Shown here piece after piece: positions 3,671 through 22,236 of a stretch of 64,000 nt of DNA. This DNA comes from Oceanispirochaeta crateris (GTDB taxonomy: Bacteria > Spirochaetota > Spirochaetia > DSM-2461). Location: assembly GCF_008329965.1 (NCBI RefSeq), contig NZ_CP036150.1, forward strand, positions 1,054,001 to 1,118,000. The letters run 5' to 3'. Numbering within the stretch: the first letter of the stretch is position 1; each line of letters begins with the position of its first letter. Both the position numbers and the translations under genes were made by a program. The notes beneath the pieces are model-generated. The model did no database searches and had not been told where the DNA came from. It saw only the letters and a program-made list of their open reading frames with translations.

Positions 3671-3693
3671 AATAACTCCCTGCATGGTTTCAT
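3664..3693 (-). other. possible 9-codon leader ORF overlapping the mqsA-type start
   Basis: An ATG at 3693 preceded by AGGAG at 7-base spacing opens a frame encoding MKPCRELLC. It stops with TAA just past the ATG of the MqsA-type gene, so the two overlap. It could couple or tune translation. It is too short to prove as coding. Confidence 0.35.
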
Positions 3694-3715
3694 AGTATTG
3701 CTCCTTAAAATATGA

Positions 3716-3766
3716 CTAACCGAAACGGTTAGTTTAATTATAACCTATTCGGTTAATATATTTCAA
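3716..3766 (-). promoter_or_regulatory. autoregulated promoter of the MqsA-type gene
   Basis: On the minus strand TTGAAA (3761-3766) and a perfect TATAAT (3737-3742) are spaced by 18 bases. Palindrome 1, CTAACCG-AAA-CGGTTAG (3716-3732), lies just downstream of the -10 box. Palindrome 2, TAACC-TATTC-GGTTA (3741-3755), lies between the two boxes. MqsA is known to bind AACC-spacer-GGTT palindromes in its own promoter, so both sites fit self-repression. Confidence 0.75.
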
Positions 3767-3821
3767 GATGCAATGCAATAATTTGTATGTGCTGTCAAAA
3801 AGGCTGATTACAATAATCATC

Positions 3822-3994
3822 CTAGTGTCCAGCTATGGCTGAATAACACATCAGATCTGTCTGGTGATTCAATTCAAGTCCGAAAGCCTTAAGATTCCCC
3901 AGGTCATTTACACCATTTAAGGGTTTAAAAGCCAAATCTAAGCTTCTCTTTCAATAATATTATGGTACTCAATCCATCTGTGAGCAAATGGCAT
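3822..3994 (-). pseudogene. frameshifted gene relic of unknown family
   Basis: The minus strand reads MPFAHRWIEYHNIIERE from an ATG at 3994 and then hits a stop. The adjacent frame continues as protein-like sequence (FKPLNGVNDLGNLKAFGLEL) to a TAG at 3822-3824. Together they look like the decayed end of a gene, but the family is not recognised. The rest of the 3686-4040 gap holds the regulator's promoter and nothing else I can name. Confidence 0.35.
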
Positions 3995-4040
3995 ATTTTT
4001 TGCTAATAAATAATCAATATTTATTCTTGAGGGGTATATT

Positions 4041-4352
4041 ATGCTGAAAAAGATGATCCTGATTCTGTTAGTACTGTTGAATATCTATACCTTTGTTACT
4101 GTCCGTATGGACAAACAATCAGCCGTGAACGGTTCTTCCCGAGTTCCTGAAGTTCGTTTGGTTGCCATTAGTTCTTTAGGTGGTGCTCCCGGAATGCTTC
4201 TGGGGTTCAATGTGTTCAATCATAAAACCAATGTTGTGAGAAAGGGCTATCTGCAGGATGCCATAAAACTGGTTTTATTTCAGAACCTGATCATGTATGG
4301 ATTCGTATTCTTTAGTTTACGCAAAAAGAAAGAGAAGGTTTGGAGGTATTAA
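4041..4352 (+). CDS. small DUF1294-type membrane protein
   Basis: A 103-residue protein with two predicted membrane helices, one at the extreme N-terminus and one near residues 75-95, and a basic C-terminal tail. The spacing of DKQSAVNGSSRVPEVRL, SLGGAPGMLLG and the following NHKTN fits the DUF1294 family, whose function is unknown. The start has a GAGGGG-like ribosome site about 8 bases upstream. It stands alone between gene relics. Confidence 0.7.
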   Translation: MLKKMILILLVLLNIYTFVTVRMDKQSAVNGSSRVPEVRLVAISSLGGAPGMLLGFNVFNHKTNVVRKGYLQDAIKLVLFQNLIMYGFVFFSLRKKKEKVWRY

Positions 4353-17801: not shown

Positions 17802-18236
17802 ATGAAAGCTAATGCTGATTTCCCTACTATCAATGATAAACGTCCCGATGGTCTCAGTCCGGATGGAACCCCCTATAAGGCTTTAATTATTGATGATTCT
17901 ATATTCGTAAGAAAACAGATCAGTCAGATCTTGACATCAGAAGGCTTTGAAGTTGTTGGTCAGGCTGGTGATGGTGTGGAAGGCATCGAAAAGTACAAGG
18001 AATTATTTCCAGGTGTTGATATTGTGACTCTGGATATTACCATGCCTAAGATGGATGGTGTCACCGCTCTTGAAAAAATCATAACCTTTGATCCCAAGGC
18101 CAATATTGTTATGATCAGTGCCCTGGGAAAGCAGGATCTGGTCAAAAAAGCACTCATAGCGGGTGCAAAAAACTATATTGTAAAACCCCTTGACCGTAAA
18201 AAAGTTCTGGAAAGAATTACAGCGGTTCTCAATTGA
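17802..18236 (+). CDS. CheY-like response regulator with N-terminal extension
   Basis: A single receiver domain of 144 residues, with about 25 unrelated residues at the N-terminus. The domain has the acidic pair in IIDDSIFVRKQI, the phospho-acceptor aspartate in TLDITMPKMDG, the threonine/serine switch in MISALG and the lysine in VKPLDR. It resembles CheY used as a stand-alone signalling adaptor. It has a strong ribosome site (AGGAGG). The 3' end overlaps the converging nrdG gene by 8 bases. Confidence 0.85.
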   Translation: MKANADFPTINDKRPDGLSPDGTPYKALIIDDSIFVRKQISQILTSEGFEVVGQAGDGVEGIEKYKELFPGVDIVTLDITMPKMDGVTALEKIITFDPKANIVMISALGKQDLVKKALIAGAKNYIVKPLDRKKVLERITAVLN

Positions 18237-18936
18237 TATTGATTGTACAGGGAATGTCCTGATCCAGCATTCCCTTCTGCAAGTCCTTCAAAAACTGACT
18301 TGATGTCTCCTGGTGGCTGTTAAAGCTGGGTTCCAGACAGTTCCCCGGTCTGAATCCATTTAGAACATAGGACGTGCAACCTCTAATCATATGGGCAATT
18401 TCATCAATCATAGAAACATCGATAAAATCAGGATGGACTGTGGTTCTAAACTGGGATGGAATTTTCGAGTCTAGTATCAAATCAATTGATTTCTGAATAT
18501 TTTTAATTTCATTTTGATCAATAAAAAACCTGTCATATGAAGACAGGGCAGATTTGATGTCCATGGCTATAAAATCTGGTGGATTTTTAGATTCCAGGAG
18601 TTCTTTTAAGCTGTCAAAGCGAAGTCCGTTGGTATCCAACTTGATTGAAAAATCACCATTTTCCCTGATTTCACTTATAAAATATTTCAAATCTCTGTAT
18701 AAAAGCGGCTCCCCTCCGGATAATACTACCCCTCCCAGGAGAGGAGCCCTGTTGTTCAAAAATTGAATTACTTCATCCCTGTTGATCAATCCTTCGGTTC
18801 GACCAAGAACCAGGTCGGGATTGTGACAATAGGAACATCTCATATTACAACCCGGGAAAAAGAGAACAGAGGCAACTTTTCCCGGATAATCGATGAGTGT
18901 CGTTTTTTGCAGTCCGACAGAATGTGGCAAATGCAT
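18229..18936 (-). CDS. nrdG: anaerobic ribonucleotide reductase activating enzyme
   Basis: Radical SAM activase of about 235 residues that installs the glycyl radical of class III ribonucleotide reductase. The cluster motif CNMRCSYC binds a 4Fe-4S cluster and is followed by GGVVLSGGEPLL. I place the start at the ATG at 18936, 4 bases after the stop of the upstream gene, because it begins the family-like MHLPHSVGLQKTTLIDYPG. The longer in-frame extension runs into that upstream gene. Here the substrate should be the glycine carried on the adjacent glycyl-radical/redoxin protein, not on NrdD itself. Confidence 0.9.
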   Translation of the reverse strand: MHLPHSVGLQKTTLIDYPGKVASVLFFPGCNMRCSYCHNPDLVLGRTEGLINRDEVIQFLNNRAPLLGGVVLSGGEPLLYRDLKYFISEIRENGDFSIKLDTNGLRFDSLKELLESKNPPDFIAMDIKSALSSYDRFFIDQNEIKNIQKSIDLILDSKIPSQFRTTVHPDFIDVSMIDEIAHMIRGCTSYVLNGFRPGNCLEPSFNSHQETSSQFLKDLQKGMLDQDIPCTININ

Positions 18937-18940
18937 TTTA

Positions 18941-19450
18941 TCAGGCTGTGACAGATTCCAGATTAAAAAGGGACAACACTTCCGATGGATTCCCGGTTCT
19001 AAAGACCTCACTGCCTTCGGCAGATCTAAAAATTACCGTGGGAGCCGAAAATACAAGATTTTTTGAGGCTTCTTCCAAACCTTTTTCTATATCAACATTA
19101 AAAGTCTCTCCGGATATGGAAATCTTATCAAGAACATCTTTCATGGCTGGACAATTGGGGCAGCTGCTTCTATAAAAGTAATTGTATTTGGCAATCCTGA
19201 GAGGGCTTCCTACAACTGGCTCTGTTGCTGGAGAAACCTCTTTGAGGATGGGTTCTGTCGTTTTTGAGTCTATTTTGGTAAAGGGTACTCTGATTTTATA
19301 CTCTTCTTTCTTACCCAAATTCCAGTTCTTTACAGATCTGTAATATCCAACGATCCTTGAGTAGACCTCAGTTGTGGATCCTTCCACTTTATTCATTTTT
19401 TTCTTCAAATCCGAGATTTCACTCTCAATCTCTTTAATTCTATTTTCCAT
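18941..19450 (-). CDS. detached NrdD glycyl-radical loop fused to a redoxin
   Basis: A 169-residue protein in three parts. Residues 1-23 form a near-perfect heptad helix (I5, I8, I12, L15, M19, V22). Residues 26-54 carry TEVYSRIVGYYR and WNLGKKEEYK, which is the C-terminal glycyl-radical segment normally found at the end of NrdD; the radical glycine would be Gly35. Residues about 85-169 are a thioredoxin/glutaredoxin-like domain with C97-P-N-C100 and a cis-proline region SAPTVIF. The ATG overlaps the nrdD stop (TGATG) and has a strong ribosome site (GGGAGGA). It probably carries the radical in trans and supplies reducing power to NrdD. Confidence 0.85.
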   Translation of the reverse strand: MENRIKEIESEISDLKKKMNKVEGSTTEVYSRIVGYYRSVKNWNLGKKEEYKIRVPFTKIDSKTTEPILKEVSPATEPVVGSPLRIAKYNYFYRSSCPNCPAMKDVLDKISISGETFNVDIEKGLEEASKNLVFSAPTVIFRSAEGSEVFRTGNPSEVLSLFNLESVTA

Positions 19451-21561
19451 CAGAGTCCTCCCTGAGCCAAAATTTTGGCTTTTTCATTTTCTAGTTGCTC
19501 TATCTTCATTTTGATCTTATTTTGTTCTTCTTCACGGCACAGTGGACACTGATAGTGTTCTCCTCTGATGTAGCCATGAGTTTTACAAATTGAAAAGGTT
19601 GGTGAAATTGTAAAATAGGGGAGGCGGTAGTTACTGGCTATGGCCTTAACCAATTCACGGCAGGCCTTCCAATCATGAATGGCTTCACCCAGGAAACCAT
19701 GAAACACAGTCCCTCCCGTATATCTGGTCTGGAGGTCATCCTGTAAATCAAGGGCCTCAAATATGTCCTGAGAGTAATCCACAGGCAGTTGTGTTGAGTT
19801 CGTATAGTAGGGACTTTCATCGGATCCGGAAGTCAGAATCTCCGGATAATGTTTTTTATCATGTTTTGCCAGCCTGTAACTCGTGCTTTCTGCAGGGGTT
19901 GCTTCCAGGTTAAAGAGGTCTCCTGTTTTTTCCTGATAATCGGATAAGCGCTGGCGCATATGATCTAATATCTCTGCGGCAAAATCATGGGCATCTGAGT
20001 CTGTGATGGTCTGCCCCATGAAATTGAGTAGACACTCATTCATTCCCACAAGGCCAATGGTTGAAAAATGATTATTCAGATGAGAAAGGTAGCGTTTTGT
20101 GTAGGGAAAAAGACCGGCATCCAGGAGTCTGTTCACAACCTTACGTTTAACCACAAGAGATTCTTTAGCCAGATCCATCATGTGGTTGAGGTTTTCATAA
20201 AATGCTGATCTGCTGGAAGACAAATACCCGATACGGGCCATATTGATGGTGACCACACCAATAGATCCTGTAAACTCATCAGACCCAAACAATCCGCCTC
20301 CCCGTTTCCTCAGTTCCCGTTTATCCAGCTGAAGTCTGCAGCACATGGAGCGCACATCTTCCGGATTCAGGTCGGAATTGATGAAATTTTGAAAGTAGGG
20401 TGTTCCGTATCGGGAGGTCATTTCAAAGAGGAGCTTTGCATTTTCACTCTCCCAGTCAAAATCACGAGTTACGTTGTAAGTGGGTATAGGGTAGGCAAAG
20501 CCTCTGCCATTGGCATCTCCCTGGATCATCAGTTCGATAAAGGCCTTATTGATCATGCCCATCTCTTCAACGCAATCACCGTAGGTAAAATCCTGTTCTG
20601 ACCCACCGACAATGGCTTTTCTGTCTTTCAAGTCTCCTGGGACCGTCCAGTCCAGGGTGATATTGGTGAAAGGGGCCTGAGACCCCCATCTTGAGGGTGT
20701 ATTCACTCCAAAGATAAAACTTTGAATGCACTGTTTCACATCTTTGTAGGCTAAGTTGTCGGTTTTCACAAAAGGGGCAAGATAAGTATCAAAGCTGGAG
20801 AGTGCCTGAGCTCCGGCCCACTCGTTTTGCATGATCCCCAAAAAATTGACAATTTGAAAAATCAGAGTAGAAAGATGCCCTGCAGGGCGGGATGTAATCT
20901 TTTCACTGACTCCTCCCAGTCCTTCAGTAATCAGCTGTCGGATAGACCAACCGGCGCAATAACCGCTAAACATGGACAAATCGTGGATGTGCATCGCTCC
21001 GCTGCGATGAGCCTCGGCAACTTCCCGGGAGTAAATATTTTTGAGCCAGTAGTTGGCTGTGATTGTTCCGGAGTTATGAAGGATGAGACCGCCTAGAGAA
21101 AAATTGACATTGGCATTCTCGTTGACTCTCCAGTCTGATTGAGAAAGGTAACCATCCATGGTTTCGTTGATATTCAGCATCAGCTTTTTTGTATCACGAA
21201 TGGCTTCATGTCTGGCCCTATAAAGGATATAGGCTCTGGCAATATCCACCTCATTGTATTCAATCAGGACTTTCTCAACCGTATCCTGTATTTCTTCAAC
21301 AGCCGGTGCAGAATTAGGATGCCTATCAGACATGAAAACGATCAGGTTAGCTTCTACATGCTTTGTCAGCTTATTACTGAGTTCTTCGTCCTTGCCGTGT
21401 ACGGCTTCAACGGCCTTGGATATAGCCTCTTTAATCCTTGATCTGTTATAGGGAACGACCCTGCCATCTCTCTTAACGACACGCTGTATAACCGTTTCTG
21501 CCGGAGACTGACTCTTAGCCTCGTCTCCCAGAAACACTCTCCAGTCATTCTTTAATTCCAT
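19450..21561 (-). CDS. nrdD: class III ribonucleotide reductase catalytic subunit lacking its radical loop
   Basis: Anaerobic ribonucleoside-triphosphate reductase, 703 residues from the ATG at 21561, which follows GGAGGGG; an in-frame GTG lies 12 bases upstream. An ATP-cone domain is at the N-terminus (VVKRDGRVVPYNRSRIKEAI). The barrel has QSFIFGVNTPSRWGSQAPFT and a tandem cysteine in MCCRLQLD at about residues 407-408. The zinc region FSICKTHGYIRGEHYQCPLC is present. Ordinary NrdD continues within about ten residues to an RxxGY glycyl-radical loop; this protein instead ends in a charged heptad-like helix (KIKMKIEQLENEKAKIL). The missing loop is in the next gene. Confidence 0.95.
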   Translation of the reverse strand: MELKNDWRVFLGDEAKSQSPAETVIQRVVKRDGRVVPYNRSRIKEAISKAVEAVHGKDEELSNKLTKHVEANLIVFMSDRHPNSAPAVEEIQDTVEKVLIEYNEVDIARAYILYRARHEAIRDTKKLMLNINETMDGYLSQSDWRVNENANVNFSLGGLILHNSGTITANYWLKNIYSREVAEAHRSGAMHIHDLSMFSGYCAGWSIRQLITEGLGGVSEKITSRPAGHLSTLIFQIVNFLGIMQNEWAGAQALSSFDTYLAPFVKTDNLAYKDVKQCIQSFIFGVNTPSRWGSQAPFTNITLDWTVPGDLKDRKAIVGGSEQDFTYGDCVEEMGMINKAFIELMIQGDANGRGFAYPIPTYNVTRDFDWESENAKLLFEMTSRYGTPYFQNFINSDLNPEDVRSMCCRLQLDKRELRKRGGGLFGSDEFTGSIGVVTINMARIGYLSSSRSAFYENLNHMMDLAKESLVVKRKVVNRLLDAGLFPYTKRYLSHLNNHFSTIGLVGMNECLLNFMGQTITDSDAHDFAAEILDHMRQRLSDYQEKTGDLFNLEATPAESTSYRLAKHDKKHYPEILTSGSDESPYYTNSTQLPVDYSQDIFEALDLQDDLQTRYTGGTVFHGFLGEAIHDWKACRELVKAIASNYRLPYFTISPTFSICKTHGYIRGEHYQCPLCREEEQNKIKMKIEQLENEKAKILAQGGL

Positions 21562-21589
21562 TATCCCCTCCACAAGGATTCATTTTGCA

Positions 21590-22045
21590 TTAACCCTTCA
21601 GGGTATCTATTATCTTCACAAATTCTTCTACATTTTCAAAATGTCTATACACAGATGCAAAGCGCACATAGGCTACTTTGTCCATTTCAAATAACTGTGT
21701 CATGACCATTTCACCCAGTTCAATAGAATTGATTTCATGACTGGATTTTCCCTTCAGATTGGCTTCATCCTCAATACCATGGAGCATGCTGTCTACCATC
21801 ATCTGTGAAATGGGTCTCTTCTCAACGGCCCTTTGAATTCCTCTTTCCAGCTTCTTAAGATCAAAGGGCTGCCTTGTGTTGTCTTTTTTGACAACCATGA
21901 GGGGAATCTCCTCAACTTTTTCATAAGAGGTGAAACGATAGCCGCAGGATGAACACTCTCTCCGGCGTCTTATAGATGTTCCACTGATATTTTGGCGAGA
22001 CTCAATTACCTTATCATCCAGATTTTCACAAAGGGGACATTTCAT
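21590..22045 (-). CDS. nrdR: transcriptional repressor NrdR
   Basis: NrdR is the ATP/dATP-sensing repressor of ribonucleotide reductase genes. The 151-residue length is normal. The N-terminal zinc ribbon MKCPLCENLDDKVIESR with RECSSCGYRFTSYE is typical, followed by an ATP-cone (VVKKDNTRQPFDLKKLERGI). It ends 29 bases before nrdD on the same strand, so it likely controls its own operon nrdR-nrdD-redoxin-nrdG. Candidate binding sites upstream are weak. Confidence 0.97.
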   Translation of the reverse strand: MKCPLCENLDDKVIESRQNISGTSIRRRRECSSCGYRFTSYEKVEEIPLMVVKKDNTRQPFDLKKLERGIQRAVEKRPISQMMVDSMLHGIEDEANLKGKSSHEINSIELGEMVMTQLFEMDKVAYVRFASVYRHFENVEEFVKIIDTLKG

Positions 22046-22236
22046 ACATATTCTCCGCCACCCCTATATGTGGGGCGCCATATGATGTGCTTAATTTAAC
22101 TGAAAATGAATTTATCACACTAAATATGGATTATCAAGTTAGGAAACCAGAATTTACTAAAAATAAGCCGAATAATTAACGTTGATGAATCAAAGAAATA
22201 ATTATACAATAACTCTGATTATGCTGAGGAGAAACT

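Follow-up and report, generated by a model that had tools for sequence, protein, structure and literature searches.

The analysed window comprises 64,000 nucleotides of the Oceanispirochaeta crateris genome (contig NZ_CP036150.1, positions 1,054,001 to 1,118,000). On its minus strand, to which all features given below belong, lies a gene cluster in the order nrdR–nrdD–small ORF–nrdG. The first gene of the cluster, nrdR (21590..22045), codes for a regulator of ribonucleotide reductase (RNR) genes and matches TIGR00244 with 182 bits, above the cut-off. It is followed by nrdD (19450..21561), coding for the catalytic subunit of a class III RNR without a glycyl radical domain. Class III RNRs are the oxygen-sensitive, anaerobic enzymes that produce DNA precursors. 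The window protein has 703 amino acids, or 707 if an alternative GTG start at 21573 is used. The small ORF (18941..19450) codes for 169 amino acids with matches to PF13597 (positions 532-561) and to glutaredoxin, and is assigned as a separate glycyl-radical subunit. Its start overlaps the end of nrdD as TGATG, and a GGGAGG Shine-Dalgarno sequence (19457..19462) is located within the 3′ end of nrdD, 6 nt before the ATG. An activase is present in the gene adjoining the small ORF: nrdG (18229..18936, with an alternative upstream GTG start at 19011) encodes a radical-SAM protein of the NrdG2 type that exceeds the cut-off of TIGR02495 with 175.7 bits. An imperfect palindrome, CACCCCTATATGTGGGGC, found upstream of nrdR at window positions 22058-22075, is possibly an operator, with a poor fit to the NrdR box consensus; a search for NrdR boxes returned no more matches than chance.

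The window NrdD is composed of an ATP-cone, a barrel, an MCCR finger loop, a zinc motif and a helical tail. It aligns to positions 1-532 of the 562 positions of the NRDD family PF13597 (E 3e-177), and also matches the ATP-cone model PF03477 and NCBIfam NF006126, the Pfam and NCBIfam matches lying above the cut-offs. The MCCR motif at residues 410-413 (20335..20346; motif classes as in PMC9669993) holds the presumed thiyl-radical cysteine. The zinc motif region ending CKTHGYIRGEHYQCPLC (19537..19599) is the last element common to intact NrdDs before the break, and both the MCCR and the zinc cysteines are invariant across the compared NrdDs. According to the initial annotation, NrdD ends about 30 residues after the CPLC motif and has no RxxGY loop. 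This is what we found: the chain stops 28 residues past CPLC, these residues forming the helical tail (19453..19536), RxxGY is absent from it, and PF13597 coverage stops at position 532. In fused NrdDs only 8-9 residues lie between the zinc site and the radical loop. Enzymes of the split clade carry a helix of about 25 residues on each broken end, whereas intact NrdDs have no such helices.

The small protein supplies the complementary part. Its residues 26-56 match exactly the missing positions 532-561 of PF13597 (E 3e-7), which bears out the earlier claim that the gene beginning in the TGATG overlap carries the missing radical segment. The sequence VYSRIVGYYR…WNLGKKEEYK is found near its start, and the presumed glycyl radical resides at Gly35 of RIVGYY (codon 19346..19348), a residue invariant in 47 homologues together with R32, I33, V34, Y36, R38, W43, N44, G46, K47, E50 and R54. 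Conservation in the protein is highest at Gly35 and the residues around it. The PFL-type glycyl radical domain (PF01228) is absent from it. Its architecture comprises a helix (residues 2-21), the radical domain (26-57), a linker and a redoxin domain. The latter is a thioredoxin-fold domain with a CPNC motif at residues 88-163 (18962..19189, pLDDT ~95); its sequence matches to glutaredoxin are weak, and the fold is assigned from the model and from Foldseek matches to thioredoxins. The redoxin domain (residues 88-162) and the extra helices flanking the break go beyond the initial annotation. The redoxin CxxC is retained in 42 of the 47 homologues, and some homologues are missing the redoxin. Since the small protein usually carries a redoxin, it may supply electrons besides the radical. 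Published work assigns the double-cysteine finger loop (MCCR type) the parts for use of formate or thioredoxin (PMC9669993), and on this basis a redoxin attached to the radical subunit is plausible as the reductant. The whole small protein is without any dedicated family model, and annotation is therefore likely to miss or misname it.

In the window genome (4.01 Mb, one contig) there is neither a second NrdD nor a second small protein of this kind, and a glycyl radical domain of the PFL type (PF01228) is likewise absent. NrdD is hence the sole candidate partner of the small protein, and a complete NrdD elsewhere in the genome, which the initial annotation had named among the observations that would speak against its proposal, does not occur. 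One further reductase is encoded, a class II NrdJ, so the split enzyme need not be essential in this organism.

The split is widespread in the phylum. The radical segment of the small protein was found in 143 of 296 genomes, fused to NrdD in some of them. Among 79 genomes of the class, a sample biased in that most were picked for a radical-segment match, 56 contain a truncated NrdD, and exactly these 56 also contain a stand-alone radical segment. Complete NrdDs only are present in 18 further genomes, with a stand-alone segment in none of the 18, and 5 have neither. The co-occurrence that the initial annotation proposed to look for holds in 56 of 56 genomes with a truncated NrdD, in a sample that is not unbiased, and is not a matter of chance. 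These counts come from whole-genome searches, because a contig scan with a single sequence gave only five loci. In seven genomes, six of them single-contig, nrdD and the radical gene are unlinked, with distances of about 95 kb to 2.2 Mb. For 43 spirochaete loci containing both genes, the separation ranges from -4 nt (overlap) to 206 nt, the relative frames of the two ORFs are distributed 17/15/11 over all three possibilities, the NrdD tails extend 21-38 residues beyond the zinc motif, and all three stop codons are in use. A Shine-Dalgarno sequence of at least 4 bases precedes 96% of homologous small-ORF starts, compared to 23% of control ATGs. In every split locus examined, the radical loop is on the separate ORF and not on the barrel polypeptide. 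Two to four stand-alone radical segments, outnumbering the detected NrdDs, were observed in the genomes G195, G183, G189, G064, G089 and G092; the extra segments may be spares or may serve different conditions.

The split NrdD is the sole RNR detected in 19 genomes (G081, G149, G185, G197, G215, G221, G232, G238, G239, G252, G259, G262, G266, G267, G273, G282, G284, G287 and G295), with no complete NrdD and no class I or class II large subunit found by PF13597 or PF02867 in draft genomes that are 93-99% complete. Ribonucleotide reduction is essential for growth unless deoxynucleosides are supplied. Hence, the split enzyme should be functional in these organisms.

Several other readings of this data were considered. 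Programmed frameshifting or stop readthrough could yield one full-length NrdD, as the ORFs overlap or abut in the window and in some relatives, and in four loci (L033, L041, L053 and L056) they share a frame with one stop between them. However, all three relative frames occur, gaps reach 206 nt, three different stop codons are used, the small ORF has a Shine-Dalgarno sequence and start of its own, and the genes may be up to about 2 Mb apart, so that no one recoding event fits all loci; we regard this reading as extremely unlikely. The varied frames, gaps and stops together with the unlinked genes exclude that frameshifting, readthrough or sequencing error accounts for the split in general. Sequencing error was rejected because the variation among species in frame, gap and stop codon is too great for it, and the argument of the initial annotation that a strong ribosome site speaks against a simple frameshift error is extended by the 96% of starts with such a site. 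The class II NrdJ of the window genome would fit a scenario of gene decay, in which the split nrdD is a dying pseudogene and ribonucleotide reduction is left to the class II enzyme. As the catalytic residues are kept in both halves throughout the phylum, and the 19 genomes above have no other RNR detected, this scenario deserves virtually no credence.

The small protein could also be a spare part in the manner of YfiD/GrcA, repairing a radical enzyme that was cleaved by oxygen. YfiD does bear its radical domain in trans, and the same authors speculate on spare parts for other enzymes (PMC8683613). The principle is similar, but in the present case the part is probably obligate: there is no intact NrdD to repair, and the segment matches NrdD and not PFL. 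PFL is no candidate for such a repair, given that the genome is without a PFL-type domain, and the spare-part reading as a whole appears very improbable. The arrangement could nevertheless have the added advantage that small subunits cleaved by oxygen are replaced. Finally, the pair might be active with its radical located elsewhere, the small protein being mainly a redoxin and the RIVGYY segment just a docking element. The CxxC redoxin in most homologues would agree with this. On the other hand, stand-alone radical domains free of redoxin exist in spirochaetes, Fibrobacter-like genomes and phages, and conservation peaks at the glycine and its neighbours, which leaves this idea with only the slightest probability.

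Structure models were computed for a relative and for the window small protein. In the relative (locus L033 of a Spirochaetaceae MAG, WGCU01000011.1), the two ORFs share a reading frame that is interrupted by a single TAG, which was read as Gln. The resulting model is thus a single covalent chain, and its alignment of 49 related sequences includes fused enzymes that place the radical loop. It displays the full NrdD fold (mean pLDDT 89.5, pTM 0.84) and, among solved structures, comes closest to the NrdDs of P. copri, S. thermophilus and T. maritima. The zinc site and the radical domain are connected by two helices, residues 654-680 and 686-708, of which each broken end contributes one. Both helices and the radical domain are modelled with pLDDT ~88-95, the NrdD tail helix 654-680 with ~95. 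This covalent model is consistent with docking through paired helices. A heptad pattern is strong in the helix of the small protein and not significant in the NrdD tail; a coiled coil is therefore a prediction from the model only. Modelled alone, the window small protein has a confident helix (residues 2-21) and a confident redoxin domain, while its radical loop is poorly modelled, with a pLDDT of 50-60. The latter is expected if the loop becomes ordered only inside NrdD.

Separate translation, conservation and joint inheritance of both pieces are demonstrated as far as sequence comparison reaches. The enzyme is a class III RNR in all tested features except one, namely that its radical loop is carried by a chain other than NrdD. 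We consider it highly probable that the window enzyme is an obligate two-subunit class III RNR with the radical loop provided in trans by the small subunit. The initial annotation had proposed a two-subunit reductase with its radical on the small protein, and the unlinked genes and the 19 genomes with no other RNR detected lend support to this proposal at the genome level. In such an enzyme, the N-terminal helix of the small subunit would pack against the helical tail of NrdD, and the RIVGYY loop would enter the barrel beside the MCCR cysteines. NrdG would install the radical on the small subunit, which would then start each turnover in the manner of an intact NrdD. Between turnovers, re-reduction of the enzyme is probably the task of the CPNC domain.

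Glycyl radical enzymes are generally described as single chains, in which a buried C-terminal loop swings out to the activase and back to the active site. The two-piece version would permit the radical subunit to be activated, labelled, mutated and swapped separately from the barrel, and would render the loop step directly accessible to study. The split may also offer a cheap replacement of the part that is cleaved by oxygen, and would explain the truncated look of NrdDs in many spirochaetes and Fibrobacter-like bacteria.

The described class III NrdDs (T4, E. coli, Thermotoga maritima, Prevotella copri) resemble the window enzyme in fold, ATP-cone, finger loop and zinc site, as well as in radical-loop sequence and NrdG partner. 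They differ in that their radical glycine is on the NrdD chain, whereas here it is on another protein and helices are added at both ends. YfiD/GrcA and T4 Y06I are likewise small glycyl-radical-domain proteins acting inside the barrel of another chain (PMC8683613), but they are an optional repair of oxygen-cleaved PFL, while the part discussed here would be obligate and its partner is NrdD. Only for these PFL spare parts, YfiD and Y06I, has a glycyl radical domain acting in trans been validated, and the authors do no more than speculate on others (PMC8683613). A natural division of an RNR catalytic chain into two gene products is known from the split class II enzyme NrdJa/NrdJb (PMC9669993), which, however, has no glycyl radical and sets apart other C-terminal domains. 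Interrupted RNR coding sequences also occur in the phage nrdD and nrdA genes that are split by introns or endonucleases (PMC3653736). Those are mostly cases of introns, inteins and homing genes inside the coding sequence, in contrast to the break at a domain boundary without insert seen here. As to the reductant, a CxxC redoxin like NrdH or thioredoxin is plausible for a double-cysteine class III enzyme by its finger-loop type (PMC9669993); NrdH and thioredoxin are free proteins, whereas the redoxin of the window system forms one chain with the radical domain. No description of a class III reductase with the radical in trans was found in the open-access literature searched; a subscription paper or RNRdb may mention one.

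Splits of other types were found outside the group of the window enzyme. In other spirochaete families the zinc site has an altered pattern and only a short stretch of NrdD follows it; the radical protein has 55-90 residues, is devoid of the long helix and the redoxin, and is sometimes unlinked and present in several copies. In Fibrobacter-like genomes (Fibrobacterota), a NrdD of 777 residues precedes a radical protein of about 45-50 residues, and nrdG comes next; other members of the Fibrobacterota have a fused NrdD. Phage contigs, many of them from one group, encode a NrdD of 573-591 residues that overlaps or lies near a radical protein of 75-80 residues. A tblastn search of plasmid and phage records returned no close two-piece relative, but such contigs were obtained from IMG/VR. 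As a contrast group, the Thermoproteota have a stand-alone radical segment in 0 of 61 genomes.

In a tree of 159 NrdD cores the split or fused label needs 12 changes, at least 7 of which are forced by well supported branches; the tree is a quick, unrooted one under a simple model and with long branches, which leaves the direction and exact number of changes unsettled. Four fused NrdDs group with the window NrdD inside a clade of 44 rows of otherwise split enzymes. Their nesting suggests re-fusion, which is likely on this topology, and the one-piece and two-piece forms look interchangeable. The distribution indicates that the split is not a matter of spirochaetes only and arose repeatedly, in spirochaetes, in Fibrobacter-like bacteria and in phages. 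Taken jointly, we think it probable that an obligate glycyl radical enzyme with a separate, exchangeable radical subunit arose several times among RNRs and re-fused at least once, that the spirochaete small protein gives both the radical and reducing electrons, and that the carrier gene can act from a distant locus. If this joint reading, which we hold to be likely, is true, the enzyme would be the first case of a glycyl radical enzyme for which a radical in trans is the normal mode of operation.

Some individual loci may be mentioned. The fused NrdDs nested with the split NrdD of the window (L073, L074, L079 and L082) are without the helices. The fused NrdD of L108 (G030) has a long, unusual linker between the zinc site and the radical loop, and stands beside split relatives. 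In the Fibrobacterota loci L120-L136 and L139, the radical proteins of 45-50 residues, MSEKEMSQYGEGVGFERIRRITGYLVGTVDRFNNAKRAEVNDRVKHGV, are located between nrdD and nrdG, and in genome G325 (L136) a radical segment is present on a different contig. In the phage group from IMG/VR (L188-L198 and L207), the radical protein of 75-80 residues has an N-terminal part of its own and overlaps a NrdD of about 587 residues. In the ANMV-1 virus of archaea (L118, KP703175.1), no NrdD was found near a protein of 145 residues at 3686-4120 that is annotated as anaerobic ribonucleoside triphosphate reductase. At its C-terminus this protein has a CPKC motif followed by a radical loop (CEMYSRIVGYLRPVNQWNKGK), and it is possibly a stand-alone zinc and radical part.
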